Origin: Dictyophora rubrovolvata | Lineage: Eukaryota; Basidiomycota; Agaricomycetes; Phallales; Phallaceae | Direction of reading: 5' to 3' | Assembly (NCBI GenBank): GCA_029959195.1 | Contig: CP114118.1 | Span: 2,630,001-2,694,000, forward strand | DNA: 64,000 bases | Shown here: positions 18,901 to 33,975 of the stretch, piece after piece | How the letters are laid out: every line of letters begins with the position of its first letter | Position numbering within the stretch: position 1 is the first letter of the stretch | Program-made: the position numbers and the translations under genes | The notes under the pieces: generated by a model | The model's database searches: none | What the model was told of the DNA's origin: nothing | The model's input: the letters and a program-made list of their open reading frames with translations, nothing else

Positions 18901-20849
18901 AGTAGTCTCAGATCGAGTTAGGAAATTAGAAGGTAATTCTTTCCTTCATAGGCCGTATATTATACGAACTACTTCGTCAGTCATTTTTACACAACAGAAG
19001 CTGCGCGTAAATGAATATTTTCGAGGATTTGCAAACGGGATGGTAAGTAGATTCTGATGTCGGTCATACAATTCTCAACCTGTCTGGCACTTTAAATAGT
19101 TTGAATACACGAATGAACCCTCTAGGTTCTGGTCAGTTGAGACACTCCGCCGCATTGATCCTTATCGACCCTATTCCTATTTCTTTTTCTTGGATGACGA
19201 TGACACCGACCCAGCAGAATTGGATCCAAATGTTATTTGCAACTACGAACCCAGCGAGGTACCATTCTGGACTTTGGAAAAGGCCTTTAAGGAGGCTTAT
19301 TCGAGCAACGTTGAAAGCTCAGAGCCGAATCCAGAAGAGCCCGATAATAAGAACGCAGGTGATGGTGATGCAGCGGACGAAAAGAACCCTAGCGCTTCAG
19401 GCGTAGACGATAACCCGGAGTGGATCTCTAAGCTATCGGACCAAGAATGGAACGGCTTCTGCGACAGCGACAACTCAGATGTTAAAGTCCAGTTGTTATC
19501 ATTTACATTTGTCGTCAACAACGAGACTCCAGCTGAGGGTCATCGGGACGTAGAAGTAGAAGGTTCTATTTCAACGCAATCGCTACAGTACTCTTCCCGA
19601 GGGAAATGCAAGGCCATGCGATCTATCCAAAGAATTGTCCTTGAACCCGTCGCCGACGAGGGTTTTCAGCTTGCTGGCAATATTTCTTCTACAGATAGCG
19701 GGATTATGACAGGAAAAATAGCGATCCGAATTTCCCCCACAGAGACGATGACATGCGCCTTCTTTATGGAACAACGCTTGCATGACACGGATTTTTACGA
19801 CCAGTATCGACCACCATCTTCAGAATTCAATCGGTCAAAACCTAGGGCTTTGTGGAAATTCGCCTTCACTGCTGTCGTGGCTCAAGTTTCGGCTGGAAAT
19901 CCTTTCTGCCTTGCATTTTGGGACGAAAGAAAGAGAGTTAGGGGGCGATTCGTGGACCTTTCACTTGAACGAAAAGTGGGAGGGTCTCTTGGAGATGAGT
20001 CAGATACGTATTGGTCCAGAGCCTTAGTGACGAAGATAAAGAATATTATGAAGCTTTGGCAGACGATAAACTCTTGAGGCAGCCAAAGCATTGGTGCGTA
20101 GCAGATTATTTGCTCAGGGTCTAATTTTACCCTAATTAAATAATTTCATTAGCGGGTATAGTTGTGACCACTGCGATTGTATAATTTACGGGGCCCGAAC
20201 ACTCTGTATAACCTGTATAGAGAACAATGGTTTCAATACGGTGGATTTCTGTGACAGAACCGACTGCGTCACCGCTCAAAAAACTCCCCTGAGGAATTTA
20301 GCCATCCCACATTTGTCTTCCCACAACCTTCTCAAGGCCCGACGAATGGTCTTTCAAGCGACGCTGGGAAGAACCGTTAAAAATGCAAACAGAACTCAAG
20401 ATACAATCAAAAACCTACTTGCCGACTCTCGATCGGAATTAGCGAACAGTACCAGAAAGCAACTGAGCGCTTGTAGTACGGATTTGACTTGCACTTTCTG
20501 CGGAAACAAAGTTTCGCCGCCATTTTGGGCATGTATCGAATGCGGTAATGAATTCATTGTTACCTTCCCTGTTAGAAGGCAATTTTTAACGTTTTTACCG
20601 ATAGACACTACTTGCGTTTGTATGGAATGCGACAAAGCGGGTAAAGCGGCTGTTCCGAAGGAATATGATGGGGAACACAATTTTGACGAACACGTACTTC
20701 TCAAATGGTCACCAGGTTTCGCGGTCCCAACAATGGAAGAGAGGTTGGCTAGGATAGAAGCTAACTTAGCCAAGACAGCTGAGCTCGTTGCTGCCTTGAG
20801 CAAGAACGGACTGCAAGGCCTAGAAACGGTGACGTGGAATTCTATCTAG
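15998..20849 (+). CDS. Large EF-hand/zinc-finger protein with STAND-like N-terminus (copy A)
   Basis: About 17 short-intron exons. In order: a Ser/Pro-rich head (15998-16363); a helical region (NYFLSGNDQLIGFLDDISRIHP, about 16.5 kb) like the N-terminal module of fungal STAND proteins (FWQTEFSKYLKIF, EFALTIHIAGGVEN); a long coiled coil (17.24-17.70 kb); a conserved block KWGGSVKARYFVMALHDY; one EF-hand with calcium-loop residues DEDASGFITIREV (about 18.12 kb); a helical block with LLHWIAYWVIGWYQS; a beta-rich part (19.2-20.0 kb); and a C-terminal ZZ-like zinc region (CDHCD, CITC, FCDRTDC, CTFC, CIEC, CMEC) with a short coiled coil. The function is unknown. An alignment by eye with copy B suggests one base is missing near 20008, which would cut off the zinc region. 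Exon joins at 18.66-19.10 kb are unsure. One intron before GTTGCGTGG (16741) may start GC. Confidence 0.75.
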
Positions 20850-21281: not shown

Positions 21282-24218
21282 TCAGATGGAATCCCATGTT
21301 AGAGCATCCTGGCCTTGCAGTCCGTTACCCATCGAGGTGGACAGGGCAGCAAGAAGCCGATCAACCTTTCGGCTCAAAGAGGCGTCCAACTCGGTCATTT
21401 TAGATTCCATCCTAGCTAGCCGCTCTTCTGCAGTTGGCACCACGACACCTGATAAAGAACTCGTTTGCCATTTGACAAGCACGTGTTCGTCAAAATTATG
21501 CTGCGTATTGTAGTCCACCGGAACAGCCGCTTTACCTGCTTCGTCGCATTTGAAGCAGACGCAGGTGATGCCTATTGGTGAATGGTGAACACTGAACATT
21601 GAGAAATGGCCTTAACGAGGTAGCGAAACGTACCATCACAGTCAATGCAGGCCCAAAATGGGAGCAACACCTTGTCCCGGCAAAAGGTACAAGTCAATTC
21701 ATCAATACCTTGCGGCTTTCTCATACTGCTCGATAGCTTAGAGGAGTCGTCGAGAAGCTTTTTGATCGTATCTTGAGTGATCTTCGCATCTCTAACGATT
21801 CGTCCCAATATTGTTTGAAAGACCACTCGTCGAGTTTTAAGGAGAGTATGTGAAAGCAGATGCGGTGTGGTTAGCACCCTGTCAGGTGTTCCTTGAGTGG
21901 CAACGCAGTCATGTCTGTCGCAGAAATCGACTGTGTTGTAGCCATTGTTTTCTACACAAGTCATGCAAAACGTTCGGGTGCCATAAATTGTACGACCGCA
22001 GTTATCACATGTATAGCCGCTAGCAAATTTATTCAATAATGGTGAAGGTAAAGGTGGGTATCAAAACACTGCGTGTTACTCACCCATGTCTTGTCATACA
22101 CGAGAGCTTATGCTGTACCAAGGCCTCATAGTATTCCTGGTCATCATGTCTAAGGTTCTCCTGAAGAGACCTATATACACCCCATTCTTCATCTTCTAAG
22201 GCCTTCCCTAGTTTTCGTTCAAGTAAAATGTCTACAAAGCGCCCCCTAGCTCTCTTTCTCTCGTCCCAAAATGTACGAGAAAAAGGTTTCCGTGCCGAAA
22301 CCTGGGCCATGACGGCAGTAGCGGCGAATTTCCATAAAGCCTTGGGTCTTGAATGACGGAACTCTGAAGGTGGCGGTCGGTATTGATTGAGAAAGGCCGC
22401 GTCATGCAAACGTTGTTCCAGAAGGAAGGTGCACCTTGCCATCTCTGTCGCAGAGATTTTGATCGACATCTCTCCTGTTATGATCCTTTGCTCGCTAGAA
22501 GACATACTTCCATGTAATCGAGATTCATCATCACCGGTTGGTTCGAGTTTAATTCCCCCGTCAGTTGGTACGACCGTGCATGTCTTAGATGTCGAGTACT
22601 CTTGCAATTGTGTTAAAACGGAACCTTCTAGCGTTACGTCCCAATGCTCATCCGTTTGAGCCTTATTGTCCACGTTAAATGTGAATGACAATAACTGTCC
22701 CCGGAAATCTGAATTATCACTATGGAAGAATCCGTTCCACTCTTGACGTGACAGCTTCGAGATCCACTCATGGGCAGCAGTATCGTTTACGCCCACAGCG
22801 ACGAGCTCTACAATGTTCAAGGCTGCGGCGTTTTCTGTATCCTCTTCGTTGGGCTTTGGATCTGAGTCCGACGCTTCTGCTTTGTCCGAGTACGCTTTTC
22901 TAACGGCATCTTCCAGAGTCCACAGTGGTACCTCGCTGGGGGTATGGTTGCAAACGCGTAGGTCCAGCTCTTTCAAATCGTCTCCTTCGTCGTCGGAAAC
23001 AGAGAAGTAAGAATGGGGTGGAGAAGGGTCGATGCGAAGGAGAACCTCTGTGGACCAGAACTTGGAAGGATCGTTCACGTATTCAAACTGAGGTGCCGGA
23101 TTGTGTGAAAATGGCTGGGGAACAGTTGATCCAGTTGATCAATGCAAAGCAGAGGTAGTTATGGGGCACTTACATTCTAGTCTCCAGACCCGATCCGAGA
23201 CTGCCTCAGTGATTACCCTAATCGATTCTCTTGCTTCCTACGTAGGTTCAGTTAGAGCTCAATAGGCAGTAACACGGTGTTTCCTTACTTACCTCTAGAT
23301 CGGGAGGATGCAACACCTTTTTCTCAGCGACTCTGAAAATGTCTAGGTGCCTTTTAAGTAGCAGGTATAGAAGAGGAAAGAGTTTCTAAGTTAGAAAGGC
23401 AACGTTCCCTATTTAGTTCGTGACATCTTTTATAATAGCGCACATACCTTCTCTATTTACCCAGTGCCAGTTACCAGCTTCACGCCGTCTTTACCATCGA
23501 TCGTGTAGCGAACTTCAACCAACGTATTTTCCAACCGCTGTTCCTCCTGTTTATCGTAATCCTCGAATTTGATACTCATGACCTCATCGTATTCAATTGT
23601 ATTAAGGCCGTAAACAAGTGGAAGAATACAGCTCAACATTGTTTCGGTATACTCATCGGCAGCGCTCCTGTTTTCGCGACGGACTGAAGGCAGAGGTTGA
23701 AGAAGTTTTGCAATCAAAGCTTGTATTTCGTCTCGGTAGCATCCTTGTGAGTGGTGCCATCCTATTCCAAGTACTGTAATAAGCATTTGCATTTCAGAGA
23801 CTTGACGAGCAAGACAAACCTATGACCCAGTATGCAATCCAATGAAGAAGACTAAACGAGTCGCTCTCAGCCCAATTAAGTGAGAAATTATGGGAGTGTA
23901 ATGACATACCTCCAACCATTTGGCTTTGAGCTTATAAACTCATTGACTTCCCTAATCGTAATAAAGCCAGAAGCGTCTTCGTCGAAAGCTTCGCTGAGGG
24001 CCTGAGCATTGGCGGGATTAAGGTAGCTAAGCGCCCAAGCGTCGGCATCTCGCTTTGCCGCCCGAGATTTGCCACCGTGACGCAGTTTGTTGAATGACAA
24101 ACCCTCCGATTTGAGCTGTGAGTCGTGGTCGTCCAAGCCCCATTTCTCAGTGAAGTAGTCGTGTAGAGCCATTACGAAGTGACGTGCTTTTACACTTCCT
24201 CCCCATTTCTGTAAAGTA
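21282..24218 (-). pseudogene. Truncated paralogue of the EF-hand/zinc-finger gene (copy B)
   Basis: Reading leftwards from 24210, it matches copy A exon by exon: KWGGSVKARHFVMALHDY, the EF-hand DEDASGFITIREVNEF, LLHWIAYWVIG, RENRSAADEY, the beta-rich block (EVPLWTLEDA, QEWNGFFHSDNSD), then the zinc region (CDNCG, CMTC, FCDRHDC, CTFC, CIDC, CFKC) and LTWDSI at the stop. Intron positions are conserved. Everything upstream of the KWGGS exon (the STAND-like region and coiled coil) is missing; sequence stops within the preceding intron at the Copia LTR. An in-frame stop sits at about 23457-23459 where copy A has coding sequence. It is most likely a pseudogene, unless a shorter product starts inside it. 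The zinc region here lacks the frameshift of copy A. Confidence 0.75.
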
Positions 24219-27659: not shown

Positions 27660-28380
27660 TGTCAGGGCTACTCTCTCAGACTAGAGGGAGGGGATCCTAA
27701 GCAAAATATATTCTAGGAATAATACTAACTCACCTAGAGGGAGGGGATCCTAAGAGAACAAACTTAGGGATCCCTCCTCTAGGGCTACTAACTATATACT
27801 ATGAAAAACGGCAAAGGCCACACATGGCCTTCGGTTCATGGACTGGGCGTGGATACGCGCCAGTCCTGGACTTTTAGCCAGGGCCTAGGCCATGGCTCTG
27901 ATGAGAACGGGCACTCAGCGCCCGTTGGAGGAAAAATGGGAATATGGAAGGAGAGGGAAATGCAAGAGATGGGATAGAATACGAGAAATATGGAAATAAA
28001 TAAAATAGACCAGAACCGAAGATAAATATAGAAAAATAAGGGGATGATGCTAGCATACCCTGACAATCCCATCTCTGGCATTTCCCTCTCCTTCCGTATT
28101 CCCATTTTCCCTTCAACGGGCGCTGAGCGCCCATTCTCATCAGAGCCATGGCCTAGGCCCCGGCTAAAAGTCCGGGACCGGTGCGTGTCCGCGCCCAGTC
28201 CACGAACTGAAGGCCGCGTGTGGCCTTCGCCATTTTTCATAGTATATAGTTAGTAGCCCTAGAGGAGGGATCCCTAAGTTTGTTCTCTTAGGATCCCCTC
28301 CCTCTAGGTGAGTTAGTATTTCTACCAAATACATTTTACTTAGGATCCCCTCCCTCTAGTCTGAGTGAGTAGCCCTGACA
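27660..28380. mobile_element. S-family palindromic element (best preserved copy)
   Basis: It runs from TGTCAGGGCTACTCTCTC to GAGTAGCCCTGACA, 721 bp, with long inverted arms. Each arm holds the subterminal motif CTAGAGGGAGGGGATCCTAAG twice, a GGATCC hairpin and the CATGGCCTAGGC block. The centre (about 28050-28070) contains GCTAGCATACCCTGACA, the other S terminus, so it looks like two S units joined head-on. No coding frame is present. It lies at the broken edge of the Copia RT. The flanks (CCAT and ATTT) give no convincing target duplication. Confidence 0.75.
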
Positions 28381-28611
28381 ATTTACGTAGTTCCGCTCCC
28401 TCCTGTATTTAAACCCCAGCTCCCTCAGCTGTGGATCCTCAGTCTGAATATAATCAGTTTAATCAGGTACTCTCTCATATCTAGTCCGTCTCATACTCTT
28501 AATCCGTATTGCATAGTTGACTCGGACTTAACGTTCGAGTCAACTCGTACTTGTCATTCATGTTGTCTTTGACAACGTGGACTTGTACTCCGTTGTTGTA
28601 TCACACGTCAT
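28381..28611 (+). mobile_element. LTR remnant, left part
   Basis: T/C-rich sequence with a TATA-like CTGTATTTAAACC near 28410, typical of the transcribed part of an LTR. It is directly continued after 33387 once the R solo LTR is removed, because the 5-bp duplication GTCAT ends here. It may be the 3' LTR side of the Copia fossil to the left, but it no longer joins Copia coding sequence. Confidence 0.45.
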
Positions 28612-28725
28612 TGTCATGATCCGATTCATGACATCACTAGCAATACGGATTCCTTATTATATTCCCTTATCCTATCGTACTTAAACGTTATCTTATCACA
28701 ATCACTTCATAGATGCCACGACTGG

Positions 28726-29208
28726 TGTAACAATCCGAAGATAATAGCTAAATGTCGTAGCTATATATACAATTGGAAAAACTACAAAGATATTTTGTTT
28801 GAGGCCGTCTAGTCTCTGTGGAGCAGGTCCTGGTGCTGATTTCGTAAGAAGGAGGGTGGGGGAATAATATGATATTTAGCGAGTGTGTGTGCGTCGATAT
28901 AAAACCAACAACAACAAAAAAATGATGATCCTAAGATCGTGTGTGTGTGAGGGGGATGACAAATGTGAGTTGCGAAAAAAATGGTGAGTCAATACGCCGT
29001 CGATAATACAGCAATGATAATCTGTTTAAAGTTAGTAAGGCTTCAACGACAATACGAATCGTTGAGTTTATACTCCGAGGCCTCACTCAGAGTAATCCAA
29101 AGAAATAGACGTGAGCGTAGAAATAGACTAGAGACGAAACTTGACTTGAACTTGACTTAAACTGAACTAAACTTGAGACAACCGTTCCGGTAGATTGCTG
29201 CTGTTACA
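28726..29208 (-). mobile_element. LTR-like end block of the 3.9-kb insertion
   Basis: This 483-bp block begins TGTAACAATCC and ends GCTGCTGTTACA, so on either strand it starts TGTAACA and ends TGTTACA, like a whole LTR. Both families of basidiomycete LTRs and some TIR elements end this way. No matching block is found at the right end of the insertion, so it cannot be proven to be an LTR. Microsatellite-like GTGTGTGTG runs lie at about 28883 and 28941. Confidence 0.4.
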
Positions 29209-29552
29209 ATTATTTACATGCAGTATATATACCATTTGGAAACATAAAAGAAAGCAGAATGATCACTCATCATTCGCCATGATAACAAAAGGAAACAAAA
29301 AGAGAACAAAGAAACAAAAGAAAAAGGAGAAAACGATGGAGGATACAATTACAGAAAAAAGGGGAATCGCATATGTGGTTAGGGGGAATAGGAGAAATAT
29401 GTTGAAACAAAAAGAGAAACAAAAAGAGATCAAAAGAAGACGATGAAACTGGATTCCCAGCATAGCTTTACCAAAATCACCATCTGGCACTTCTCACGCT
29501 ACCTCTTACCCAAAACTATAATCTTACCATCCCAAACTTCTTACTGATCTGG
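29209..29552. other. Purine-rich spacer in the insertion
   Basis: Mostly A/G on the plus strand, with repeated GAAACAAAAAGAGA words at 29289-29430. A frame of 83 Lys/Arg-rich codons exists but looks like low-complexity sequence. It is probably the 3' region of the type-a gene, which ends at 29553 on the minus strand. Confidence 0.4.
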
Positions 29553-30119
29553 TTATTGTTGACGAGATCTTCTTCTTCGTGGCTGTGGCGCAATAATAAT
29601 GGCTATGGCAACGCTTAACAATACCAGATCTTGAACGAGATTGGATTGGAGATCGGAATAGGAAGGGAGGGTTTGATTTCCAACAGAGTAGTCGGGAGGG
29701 GATGGGATGGCAGATAGGGGTGCGTCTATGAATAAGAATTGAGTATAACTTCGAAATTGATGACGAAAGACCAGTCTCCAGATTGATTCTTCTTGACGAT
29801 TTGTTGAAAGGAACTCGACAAACTCATACGATTCGTCCATGACATTGACGTTGGTTCGTTCGTACAGGGTTAAAGCTCGTGGATATCCTATCTCCAGATC
29901 GTCATAAGGAATAGTAATCTCCATTAGTGGCTGTGGAGTAATCGGAAGCATTGTGGAGGGGTCGACATCAATTTCAGAAACAAGAGTATTGTAAACGCGA
30001 AGTCGTGAGAGGAAATTAGGGTTGGGTCCGAATCTGAGAGAAGAACGATATTCAAAAGGGAAGAAAGGGAGTTGAAAAAGGGGAATAGGGGAAGTAGGAG
30101 TATCGTTATTGTCCGACAT
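29553..30119 (-). CDS. Unknown cassette protein, type a (module 1)
   Basis: An intronless frame of 188 residues starting at an ATG. I do not recognise the family. The core (about residues 35-130) has alternating hydrophobic and charged residues suggesting beta strands, with EIDVDPSTMLPITPQPL and YDDLEIGYP followed by SYEFVEFL. The C-terminus has a short hydrophobic stretch (DLVLLSVAIAIIIAP) and a basic tail PRRRRSRQQ, compatible with a tail anchor. A decayed relative lies at 31491-31751 (IDVNEETLLPFHDGY, YYNDLRLPPILRLYDQ, SYELAAYL). It sits 105 bp downstream of the type-b gene on the same strand. No cysteine pattern or catalytic motif is seen. Confidence 0.55.
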   Translation of the reverse strand: MSDNNDTPTSPIPLFQLPFFPFEYRSSLRFGPNPNFLSRLRVYNTLVSEIDVDPSTMLPITPQPLMEITIPYDDLEIGYPRALTLYERTNVNVMDESYEFVEFLSTNRQEESIWRLVFRHQFRSYTQFLFIDAPLSAIPSPPDYSVGNQTLPSYSDLQSNLVQDLVLLSVAIAIIIAPQPRRRRSRQQ

Positions 30120-30224
30120 GATGATATGAGTTAACCAAAATTTTTAAGCGCTAATGAAATGTCCAGAAAGAAAGAAGGAGATGAAATACAAATCTAATCG
30201 CTTATCCTAATCAAGCCTTTTGTC

Positions 30225-30857
30225 CTAATTTCGTCCAAGAAGGTTTGAGCAAACACGTCGGATCTTTCGGAAGGATCGTTTGGATGGAGAAGAGGGGAGA
30301 GATATTGGTTCTGGCGAATGGGGTGAAAAACGAGACATTTGAGGATCTACAGGAACAAGATTGGCTGGTCTATATGGGCTATGTTTTTGTGTTTTTATGT
30401 TTTTCATGACAACCCAACGACTTGGCACATCTAAAACCAGGAATGTAAATTCGAACCCTTCTTGTGTCACTAACCAAATCCGATATGAGTCTTTAACGGC
30501 TGATTCGGGTGTAGAATAAACGTTAATAATTGTAAACCAGTCTAATCGTTCCTCGATATAAACCTTTTCTCCAAACATGAGACCGGGGTGAACCAAATCC
30601 GAACTTCTGCATTGACGAATAATAAGAGGTGGAGGGAACTTCGGGAGGTACGTTTCTTCGTCGATGTCAAGACTCGCATATTGGGAACTATAGATATAAA
30701 GAGTCGTATGCAGATCCAAATCGTATGTCCTTGGACTGGAAGGCGAAAAACGAAAAGGTGATATAGATTCATTGTCGGAGGGGGGTAATGACTCGGTGGG
30801 AGATGCTGGAATGGGCAAAGAAATTGATGATGTATAGTGAAATGAAAATGCGGCCAT
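30225..30857 (-). CDS. Unknown cassette protein, type b (module 1)
   Basis: An intronless frame of 210 residues from ATG 30857. I do not recognise the family. After a Ser/Pro-rich head come LDLHTTLYIYSSQ, DIDEETYLPKFPPPLIIRQC, FGEKVYIEERLDWFTIINVY, STPESAVKDSYRIWL and FTFLVLDVPSRWVV. The tail is Ser/Pro-rich and basic (SPSKRSFRKIRR). The second-module relative at 32040-32510 keeps VYIEKELRWFT, STPESALQDSYRVWL and VLDIPSRW, so protein sequence was probably under selection before decay. The phrase '[L/I]D-x-ETxLPxF' also occurs in the type-a proteins, suggesting that a and b are distant paralogues. An upstream sequence at 30960-30980 is shared with module 2. Confidence 0.55.
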   Translation of the reverse strand: MAAFSFHYTSSISLPIPASPTESLPPSDNESISPFRFSPSSPRTYDLDLHTTLYIYSSQYASLDIDEETYLPKFPPPLIIRQCRSSDLVHPGLMFGEKVYIEERLDWFTIINVYSTPESAVKDSYRIWLVTQEGFEFTFLVLDVPSRWVVMKNIKTQKHSPYRPANLVPVDPQMSRFSPHSPEPISLPSSPSKRSFRKIRRVCSNLLGRN

Positions 30858-31384
30858 TTTTTGTAAGGGTTTTGATTTCAAGAGGCTGTGGTGTATCGGT
30901 TAAGTTTTTGGTAGTTTGAAACTCCGCTTTGAACCAAAATTCGGAACGTTTCCTTATTAGGAAGATTTTGGTGCGCGACAACGGGAACATGTCTAAAGGG
31001 GCATCAAGGAATAGGACTTGTCTGGCTAAAAGCACAGTGTTGAGGACCGGAACGGCTTACACGGAGATCACGTGGAAATAGACTAATTAGCAATGGCGTG
31101 TTTGGTCAGCATTTGACTATATTGCAATTAGTATTTGATTCGTATTGAGTGCAGTTTCTCGCCTTTCCTTCATACTTATTAGACACTTAAGTCCCTTGTT
31201 CCTGCTTACTCATAAACCATGTATATAATAACCAATAGTTAAACAAAAATATCATCAGAGAGAGAGTTTCCCCCCATTTTTCGCAACTTTTCCCTCAGTT
31301 TGAGCCTTAAGAAATATATCTTCTATCCATGGATTATATTATACAATTCTCTCTATCTATCTAAAAATCCCTTATTTTCCCTCG

Positions 31385-31440
31385 ACACACATAAACACTG
31401 GTTCCCTGGATCTCTGCGTACTCCTGAGCGGCGCATATCA
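31385..31440 (-). repeat. 56-bp repeat shared with 33724-33779 (copy 1)
   Basis: Starts ACACACATAAACACTGG and ends GAGCGGCGCATATCA; 55 of 56 bases match the copy at 33724-33779. That copy lies in the 3' end of a minus-strand frame (ICAAQEYAEIQGTSVYVC). Here it sits between the two cassette modules. See the finding on this repeat. Confidence 0.7.
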
Positions 31441-31490
31441 ACAGATCGTTGGAAGATGAGTTGCCATGCTAGCTGTCCATCTCGATGCAT

Positions 31491-31751
31491 CTATAGATAT
31501 GCGGCAAGTTCATATGAATGTCCCTTTACTCTGATATGATATTGATCATATAAACGAAGTATTGGCGGTAACCTTAAATCATTGTAGTAGAGCGTATGTT
31601 GGATGTACCCATCGTGAAAGGGTAACAAGGTTTCTTCATTGACATCAATTAGTCCTTTTCGGCGGAGGACATATTCTCGTATGACCGTTTTGAAATCACC
31701 ATGTGGGCGATTGGATGATGCCATGGTGTAAGAGGCTGTGAGGTCGATCAT
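31491..31751 (-). pseudogene. Remnant of a type-a cassette gene (module 2)
   Basis: A short frame from ATG 31751 resembles the middle of the type-a protein at 29553-30119 (IDVNEETLLPFHDG against IDVDPSTMLPITPQ, then YYNDL and a YEL/YEF motif). The C-terminal part with the hydrophobic tail is missing. It is a decayed second copy in the same relative position and orientation as the type-a gene of module 1. Confidence 0.5.
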
Positions 31752-32039
31752 TATGGTAGTGAAGGGATAGAGTAAGGCTGAAGAAACTTGGAGCTCCGAA
31801 ACAAAAAGAGACCAGATGATTAAAATAGATGTTTACCCTTATACGTTATTTTTGTTCTTTATTATGTTCCAAACTGATCAAGCTCATTCTAGGAATCCAG
31901 AACAAACACGTCAAAGTGTGCAGATTGTTTGTTGATATCAAGGAGGGTGTATTGTTAAATCGGAAGAAGTCGGAGATAGGGGAGGCGAATTATGATTAGA
32001 CGAAGAGTTTGTTGGTTCTTTGGGAAGGGGATTGGCAGG

Positions 32040-32510
32040 TCAATAGAATCCTAAGACCAGTTGGTGATTGCATGATGATAGGATCCATCGACTAGGAATG
32101 TCCAGAACCATTATCATGTATTCTAACCCAACTTGTGTCGTTAACCAGACACGGTATGAATCTTGTAAGGCTGATTCTGGCGTAGAATAAACATGAGTTA
32201 CTGTAAACCATCTTAGTTCCTTCTCGATGTAGACTTCTCTTCCGAATACCAAGAAGGGATGTACGATATCTGAACTTCAACATTTATGGATACTTCTAGG
32301 AACCTTGTGCGAGTAGACTGGGAGAAGAGTCATGGGGTCAATTTGGAGGATAGGCATCGGGGAATAATAAGTGAACAATGTAGTCTCGATATCCAGATCA
32401 TGAGTACAAGGACTATCATGAATATAACGAAATATCGGAGGGATAACATCTTCTGGGGAAGAGGTAGGATTTCTAATTGTGAATGTGGATGAGAGACGAA
32501 GATTGAACAT
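32040..32510 (-). pseudogene. Remnant of a type-b cassette gene (module 2)
   Basis: Sequence similar to the type-b protein of module 1 runs through this region: FNLRLSSTFTI near the start, HDLDIETTLFTYYSP, FGREVYIEKELRWFTV, STPESALQDSYRVWL, VLDIPSRW. It is eroded. Its upstream flank (about 32540-32634) also resembles the flank of the module-1 gene (TCCGCTTTG, then GGTTTTGGTGCGTGACA), so gene and promoter were duplicated together. Confidence 0.55.
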
Positions 32511-33386
32511 TTTATTGTTATTTGAATAAGGGAATTTGGGTAAGTTGATAGTCGCTTTCTAGGAAGGGAGGATTTGAATGTCCGCTTTGGATAAGCAGCC
32601 TAATCACCAAATGAGGAAGGTTTTGGTGCGTGACACTGGAAGTCTTATCAGACTTCATCACCATTTTCACGAAGTCCTAGAGGCCGTCATCTTCCTAGGA
32701 CTTACAGTAAGCCGCGGATAGACCTTTGGTATATATTCTAGTTCCAAACCGTGCATGAGATCATCTATGACAGTCGTAGGTCCTTATGTGCTTTCCCTTT
32801 GTTCTTATTGCCTCATGTTTGCCACATGGCAAACTGACCCTGCATATACCTATGATACTCACGAATTGCTATGACATGTATACGTTCTCAAGTTCGTTAT
32901 CTATTTCGAACTGAGATTCAAACCTCTAGCGTACTTGTATATAAAGCCTCCTATACTTCGTAGCTAGACTTCTCTTCAGACTTAATATCGAACCTAGTTT
33001 GATATCTCAATATAGTCTTCATTTCCCAATAACGCTTCAGTCATTTCCAAACACTTTAAATCTAAACCGTCCATAGCAACAACGCCGTTCCGGCGTTGGA
33101 TCCGCTACTTCTTCCATCTCTTGTTCTTCTGCTTTCTAGTCGATGATCTATTCTACCAGATCGTTCTAGACTTCTTAGAGCTTCGGCTCAACAATATTCT
33201 TCGATGACTCGAAGATCCCGATTGACGTCAAGACAAGTAGAGCCAATGTCCAGAGGACTGTCGTGGTACAACCCACTCAGGTTGAGACCACGCTCTACAG
33301 CATTACGGTGACGTTTGTATCATTATTAAATATGAGTATTAACGTTTATACCTTCGTCGCCGATACCCGAGAATCGGTACTTAACA

Positions 33387-33723: not shown

Positions 33724-33975
33724 ACACACATAAACACTGGTTCCTTGGATCTCTGCGTACTCCTGAGCGGCGCATATCACGCCATCAACCAGTGCCAGTG
33801 TACCCGATGACAGAGGCGCCTGTGAAGCTACTTTGCTCACTATCCTTGAAGATACCGGCCAAGGCGCAGGCGAGTAAATCCTAGGGTCTGCAGGAGATGC
33901 CGGTGCAAATAATGAACCAGCGCCTGGTACCGTTAAAAACCCTGTTACGTCAATAACCTGCGGTAAGTCAACCAT
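33721..33975 (-). CDS. Small hypothetical frame at the transposon border
   Basis: A frame of 84 residues from ATG 33975 (MVDLPQVIDVTGFLTVPGAG, later PADPRIYSPAPWP), ending TSVYVC. I recognise no family. Its last 18 codons are the 56-bp repeat also found at 31385-31440, and its stop falls in the end of the LTR remnant, so the true 3' end of this gene was probably removed by transposon activity. It could be a fragment of a larger host gene. Confidence 0.3.
   Translation of the reverse strand: MVDLPQVIDVTGFLTVPGAGSLFAPASPADPRIYSPAPWPVSSRIVSKVASQAPLSSGTLALVDGVICAAQEYAEIQGTSVYVC
33724..33779 (-). repeat. 56-bp repeat shared with 31385-31440 (copy 2)
   Basis: Same 56 bases as 31385-31440 with one mismatch, immediately after the LTR remnant border. 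On the minus strand it encodes ICAAQEYAEIQGTSVYVC. Confidence 0.7.

Follow-up and report, generated by a model that had tools for sequence, protein, structure and literature searches.

A probable nest of solo long terminal repeats of a Ty3/Gypsy lineage with two genes in U3 in the fungus Dictyophora rubrovolvata

The stretch of DNA analysed here (the window) comprises 64,000 nucleotides of contig CP114118.1 of Dictyophora rubrovolvata (GCA_029959195.1, positions 2,630,001 to 2,694,000), and our subject is a 3.9-kb block within it, at window positions 28722-32639, which contains two genes, b and a, together with diverged counterparts of both (Table 1). A first-pass annotation, made from the sequence alone, had described the block as a single insertion carrying a duplicated two-gene cassette of unknown proteins. 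Our results show that it is not one insertion but the nested remains of two solo long terminal repeats (LTRs), with unit A lying inside unit B. The two modules recognised in that annotation do lie in the same order and on the same strand, but they are the complete unit A and the tail of unit B; the second module is the remnant of a diverged unit and not a tandem duplication. As had been stated, the frames of the first module are open, those of the second are eroded by stop codons, and motifs are common to both copies, the two b proteins being 42% identical over a 214-residue alignment. Nor was a transposition enzyme found in the block, and an Rfam scan of window positions 28600-32800 gave no match at an expectation value (E) of up to 1.

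Table 1. Features of the block in window coordinates (TSD, target site duplication; U3, R and U5, the parts of an LTR)
Feature	Position	Strand	Remarks
TSD CTGG, left copy	28722..28725	.	pairs with 32636-32639; assigned to unit B
Unit A, complete solo LTR	28726..30980	-	2,255 bp; minus-strand reading TGTCGCGCACC...TTACA
Core promoter, R and U5 part of unit A	28726..29253	-	87-95% identity to the B copies read with this part
TATA box of putative LTR promoter	29224..29231	-	TATATATA in the window; sequence match, promoter function predicted
Gene a of unit A	29553..30119	-	188 aa, open frame, in U3
Gene b of unit A	30225..30857	-	210 aa, open frame, in U3
ACGG, target site of A within the a gene of B	30981..30984	.	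right copy (left copy lost)
Unit B remnant, diverged LTR	30981..32635	-	keeps U3 start, b2 and first part of a2
Element C, solo-LTR-like repeat nested in B	31038..31440	.	403 bp; TGTTGAGG...GCATATCA; ACAG on both sides
a2 of unit B	31494..31751	-	open N-terminal piece ahead of a stop; gene cut further by C and A
b2 of unit B	31890..32510	-	broken by stop codons
TSD CTGG, right copy	32636..32639	.	4 bp

The block was compared with the whole genome (28.24 Mb in 11 contigs); since 40 of 243 first-look candidates were scored in this search, the copy counts are lower bounds. At least 47 matches were obtained, and the only full-length match among them was the window itself. At least 40 other places match 1.9 kb or more of block positions 1-2259, which correspond to unit A, at 94-99% identity, so that the genome holds at least 41 A copies of this size. 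The other matches comprised one over positions 1-1668 at 85% identity and five short pieces, and none of the 46 non-window matches listed covered both modules. When used as a separate query, the B tail proved to be a distinct repeat, with the 403-bp element C nested inside. The last 56 bp of element C are found again at window positions 33724-33779 (98% identity), perhaps as the end of the LTR that the first-pass annotation had proposed as host of the block.

Unit A is a discrete unit. A 19-base pattern of its 5' end, with up to 2 mismatches, had 106 matches in the genome, and an 18-base pattern of its 3' end had 168; chance recurrence is excluded because the reversed controls gave 0 and 2, respectively. 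Pairing of 100 listed 5' ends with 100 listed 3' ends placed a same-strand 3' end at 2,184-2,294 bp for 47 of the 5' ends and at 2.4-13.4 kb for 18, the latter being partly nested insertions that were not systematically read; the other 35 had no same-strand 3' end among the matches listed. Both flanks were read in 23 different A copies, after same-place duplicates and one incomplete copy had been dropped. Exact 4-bp duplications, all of the form NCGN, were present in 12 of these, and in another 7 the flanks differ solely as CpG decay predicts, so that 19 of the 23 have duplications, intact or CpG-decayed, as solo LTRs should. The flanks do not match in the window copy (a composite), in L033 (a 5' LTR, see below), in L035 (one base off) and in L048. 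Flanks were also read in one copy each of B and of a third family, D, with duplications of ACGG/ACGG in the B copy L052 and GCAG/GCGG in the D copy L055. The ends are TGT...ACA in the A copies read and in L052, whereas L055 ends in ATA. This bears out the original proposal that the DNA is mobile, since the ends are found again in other surroundings and with duplications of their own.

Some A copies lie close together: within 15 kb, 15 opposite-strand and 11 same-strand neighbours were counted among the 100 listed 5' ends. The inverted pairs had raised the idea that A is one long terminal inverted repeat of larger transposons, which we rejected because 12 of the 23 copies have their own exact duplication and the pairs face both ways. 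In two further places (L036 and L043) A apparently sits at the identical site of the b gene of family D, in opposite orientations, judging from the printed flanks.

Comparison of the families suggested what kind of unit this is. Unit A of the window and the B copy L052 share about 95% identity over 525 bp at one end and 35-63% elsewhere (in 150-bp steps), and full B copies, in the orientation of A, likewise start with about 525 bp of A-like sequence, at the identities given in Table 1; a B piece cut by the end of its locus (L040) has 78% identity to A over this part. The boundary between the similar and the dissimilar parts is the TATA box on the minus strand, which in L052 and L055 takes the form TATAAATA. 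Family D is more distant, with 73% identity to the promoter, R and U5 part of A over a 191-bp stretch. Read on the minus strand, the predicted anatomy is that of an LTR, with a variable U3 carrying b and then a, a TATA box, a promoter, R and U5 part, and a TTACA end.

One A copy, L033, provided the test. Its TTACA end is followed by a 4-nt spacer, AAAG, and then by TGGCTGCCCCAGTGAGGC, whose 18 nt are perfectly complementary to the 3' end of a tRNA once CCA is added to it; we read this as a primer-binding site (PBS). The genome contains a single exact copy of the 18-mer, and 11 matches when up to 3 mismatches are allowed (reversed control 2); two of the 11 are tRNA genes. A 13-nt core occurs three times, namely in L033 and in those two genes, which ARAGORN identifies as Asn-gtt (L057) and Ile-tat (L058) and which have the 3' part in common. 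About 138 nt past the PBS lies the first ATG of a 755-codon frame, which we call gag from its position alone, as it had no match in Pfam. One later frame at the same locus (L032) matches RVT_1, and the next matches RT_RNaseH, Integrase_H2C2 and rve, which is the Ty3 order. The flanks of L033 (CTTT/CCGC) do not match, which is what one would expect if this LTR belongs to a longer element. In L056 the leader is present a second time but is interrupted close to the PBS, where the sequence passes into a b gene of B type (90% over 172 bp). Because of the LTR anatomy, and of the PBS and gag-pol that follow TTACA in L033, we read A, B and D as LTRs, mostly solo, of a Ty3/Gypsy lineage. It follows that b and a are U3 genes of such LTRs and not, as the first-pass annotation had it, cargo apart from transposon genes.

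This lineage survives mainly as LTRs, because part of the b protein of family D had at least 150 matches in the genome (150 of 175 candidates scored, fragments included), as against three places with a close gag. The gag frame had 16 matches, 10 of them in these three places (on C4, C7 and C6) and the other 6 at 20-29% identity; internal regions of B or D might be among the latter. Two side observations concern individual copies. At L038/L039 (G000:C1:880600-895200) B copies lie within an inverted repeat whose 5.9-kb arms are 100% identical and about 2.8 kb apart. The D unit of L055 sits within another open frame; its first part matched nothing in Pfam, and from its motifs we take it to resemble a Plavaka/KDZ-type transposase.

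The genes themselves stand in sense orientation in U3, and D (L055) has this pair too, in the same order. Between families A, B and D the proteins are 28-46% (b) and 28-32% (a) identical, all frames compared being open. Codon position 2 was best conserved in six of six between-family comparisons and the order was 2 > 1 > 3 in five, the exception being b of B versus b of D, where position 3 (0.42) scored slightly above position 1 (0.41). Both genes have thus kept their reading frames open in three or more divergent families. For b in family B, selection was assessed on 20 rows, and then on 18 after one arm each of two inverted duplications had been dropped. With 18 copies the ratio of nonsynonymous to synonymous polymorphism (pN/pS) was 0.43-0.61 whichever of six ways of counting was used (P at most 0.0024), and 0.97-2.9 in the two shifted frames that served as controls; b is under purifying selection in this family. 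Within family A, no gap columns occur across the 23 copies over window positions 29476-30825, and pN/pS was 0.55 for b and 0.81 for a. These ratios should be interpreted with caution: transitions outnumber transversions by 256 to 25, and since most of the variation in the coding stretch is decay after insertion, the family A values are weak evidence. It is the open frame and the codon pattern across families that support a as a protein gene; for b, the case is borne by the family B ratios and their shifted-frame controls.

As to what the proteins are, the first-pass annotation called them unknown, and neither had a convincing match in Pfam, NCBIfam or the Protein Data Bank (PDB). At E up to 1, Pfam gave no family for four pieces from the window or for four b proteins, and a single weak match (DUF6887, E 0.2) among three a proteins, to one of them; in NCBIfam the four pieces gave one weak match (trmU, E 0.2, to an 86-aa piece of the second module); the PDB search returned nothing for b and E values of 0.33-0.84 for a. 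An AlphaFold2 model of b, built from five window rows, had a mean predicted local distance difference test score of 52, and Foldseek with this model gave FERM and Ran-binding chains and, further down, PH/PTB chains, none of them better than E 0.08, which we treat as no result. Compared with each other alone, a and b gave E 2e-5 in BLASTP, and a profile comparison gave a probability of 6% (E 0.007); that they may be paralogues is unproven.

We hypothesize, with a probability that we put at about 0.8, that the block consists of nested solo LTRs from a single Ty3/Gypsy lineage with two genes in the U3 of its LTR. Each LTR is about 2.2-2.36 kb long, its sense strand is the minus strand of the window, and it runs from U3 with gene b and gene a through the TATA box and R/U5 to TTACA. 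The two proteins would probably be made in the manner of the U3 genes nef or mouse mammary tumor virus (MMTV) sag, from genomic or subgenomic RNA, because in genomic RNA pol is followed by the U3 of the 3' LTR, and they would probably act as accessory proteins. Integrase would insert both LTR ends at NCGN, and recombination between the very long LTRs would subsequently delete the interior and leave solo LTRs. Template switching could account for a promoter, R and U5 part that A and B have in common next to U3 regions that differ.

Applied to the window, this explanation suggests how the apparent duplicated cassette came about. The flanking duplication that the first-pass annotation reported as ACTGG is real, although it consists of the four bases CTGG, the fifth base being the terminal A of the element. 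CTGG on the left of A pairs with the right end of B, whereas the right flank of A is ACGG, where A cuts the a frame of B (...LDAPLD(V/M)FP). At this target site other B copies have ATGG (L046 and L037) or ATGA (L052), differences that are largely such as CpG decay would give. The promoter, R and U5 end is missing from the B remnant. When unit A of the window is compared with L029, the A copy with the fewest changes, 8 of the first 125 positions differ, as against 18 of 2,128 in the rest (P = 5e-5). We propose that B inserted first, at CTGG; that B subsequently received C and A, the latter at ACGG in a2; and that the R/U5 part of A may then have recombined with the similar part of B, removing the rest of B, so that A came to abut the duplication of B. 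The duplicated cassette would accordingly be A inserted in the a gene of B, followed by an inferred loss of the rest of B.

Several observations weigh against the nest of solo LTRs or against parts of it. We saw no complete element, no pair of LTRs around an internal region, no 3' LTR and no polypurine tract; beside the left copy (L060) of a same-strand D pair on C8, no polypurine tract was seen by eye. The intact junction of LTR and PBS is known from one copy, and the ratio of LTRs to internal regions is extreme. At the L032/L033 locus (G000:C4:2490300-2501600) a second A copy, oriented opposite to the first, interrupts pol within its integrase part; this second copy has its own matching CCGA duplication, the other being the 5' LTR, and the two differ at 1 of 2,257 columns. 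The sequence past the second copy is not clearly pol, and our model accounts for this locus incompletely. Moreover, gene a is without clear selection within family A (pN/pS 0.70-0.94), and one of its shifted frames scored 0.49, lower than the true frame. As to the history of the window, an older A copy (L041) has 9 differences in the same first 125 bp, and the columns that distinguish A from B before position 484 number 2 of 46, so that a B origin of the first 125 bp is thinly based.

The extreme ratio of LTRs to internal regions could alternatively mean that the lone 2.25-kb LTR is itself the mobile unit, spreading as a DNA or RNA copy with integrase supplied in trans and with a and b helping. 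The single occurrence of the exact PBS would fit such self-sufficient LTRs, equipped with both integration ends, a promoter and two accessory genes, and so would the L029 pair of apparently young A copies, which differ at 1 of 2,256 columns and are already both solo. However, LTR-LTR recombination gives solo units equally well and is expected to be frequent at a length of 2.25 kb, and the crapaud paper (PMC10787394) describes a burst in another fungus that consisted exclusively of solo or fragment copies. We therefore regard this alternative as unlikely. If it were true, the internal region of the parent would be outnumbered by tens to one, and selection on a and b would act on the LTR itself.

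Still less probable is a two-gene DNA transposon of the Ginger1 type that is non-autonomous and moved by a Gypsy-like transposase in trans. Passages of PMC2836005 give Ginger1 TGTNR ends, 4-bp duplications of CCGG (75%) or CCGT/ACGG (24%), and inverted repeats of 40-270 bp; TGTNR fits both ends of our units, and the 4-bp duplications are centred on CG here too, in the broader form NCGN. In contrast to Ginger1, the two ends of our units have three leading bases in common and no inverted repeat above that of shuffled sequences at 40, 100 or 200 bp, PBS and gag-pol adjoin one copy without a duplication between, and we recognised no unit that has these ends and bears a transposase, although the 18 end pairs at longer distances were not systematically read. 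The finding of the PBS and the absence of inverted repeats led us to reject the idea. A cargo cassette of 3.9 kb that moved with both modules as one unit, as first annotated, hardly deserves credence despite the CTGG that flanks the whole block, given the many A-only copies in the genome, the separate repeat formed by B, and the ACGG flank where A interrupts the a gene of B.

The nest of solo LTRs agrees with what is known of Ty3/Gypsy elements (Metaviridae) in its TGT...ACA ends, 4-bp duplications, tRNA-complementary PBS 4 nt past the LTR and order of reverse transcriptase, RNase H and integrase. It differs in an LTR of 2.2-2.36 kb with two protein genes in U3, in copies that are mostly solo, and in being known here without its 3' half. 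Accessory genes within or overlapping U3, and thus present in the LTRs, are found in MMTV (sag) and in lentiviruses (nef). The likeness is one of position only, with no sequence relation claimed, and these are animal retroviruses with a single, unrelated gene. Another parallel is crapaud of Podospora, whose LTR variants, according to passages of PMC10787394, differ in the 5' half (U3) and share the rest, with many solo LTRs and with template switching named as a possible source of the variants. In those passages, however, the length, apparently of the LTR, is 339-443 bp, the divergent U3 is shorter than 200 bp, and U3 genes are not mentioned. The plant elements Retrosat2, RIRE3 and RIRE8 combine very long LTRs with a fast-evolving extra open reading frame of unknown function, but this ORF0 lies upstream of gag-pol and is not placed inside the LTR by the passages of PMC3485330 used here. 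The first-pass annotation had itself considered that the proteins might be known open frames of a described LTR family; an LTR family it is, but the open-licence literature yielded no description of such U3 genes in a fungal Ty3/Gypsy element, which is weak evidence of novelty.

Two further structures in the window lie outside the block. A foldback repeat at 27721-28320 has 255-nt arms that are 93% complementary and separated by 90 nt, and an inverted pair of open reading frames of unknown function, at 19103-20074 (plus strand) and 22083-23135 (minus strand), has 54% identity over 303 columns.

In conclusion, what is surprising in this family is that its U3 contains a conserved pair of genes. 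Such genes within LTRs are familiar above all from animal retroviruses, and an apparently fungal Ty3/Gypsy lineage that keeps a pair of rapidly diverging U3 genes suggests that LTR retrotransposons can likewise evolve accessory genes in the position of nef and sag. The finding also carries a warning for annotation, in that a pair of plausible "orphan genes" can remain at each solo LTR, and the b matches, at least 150 in number, could pass for a lineage-specific gene family although they are the remains of LTRs.

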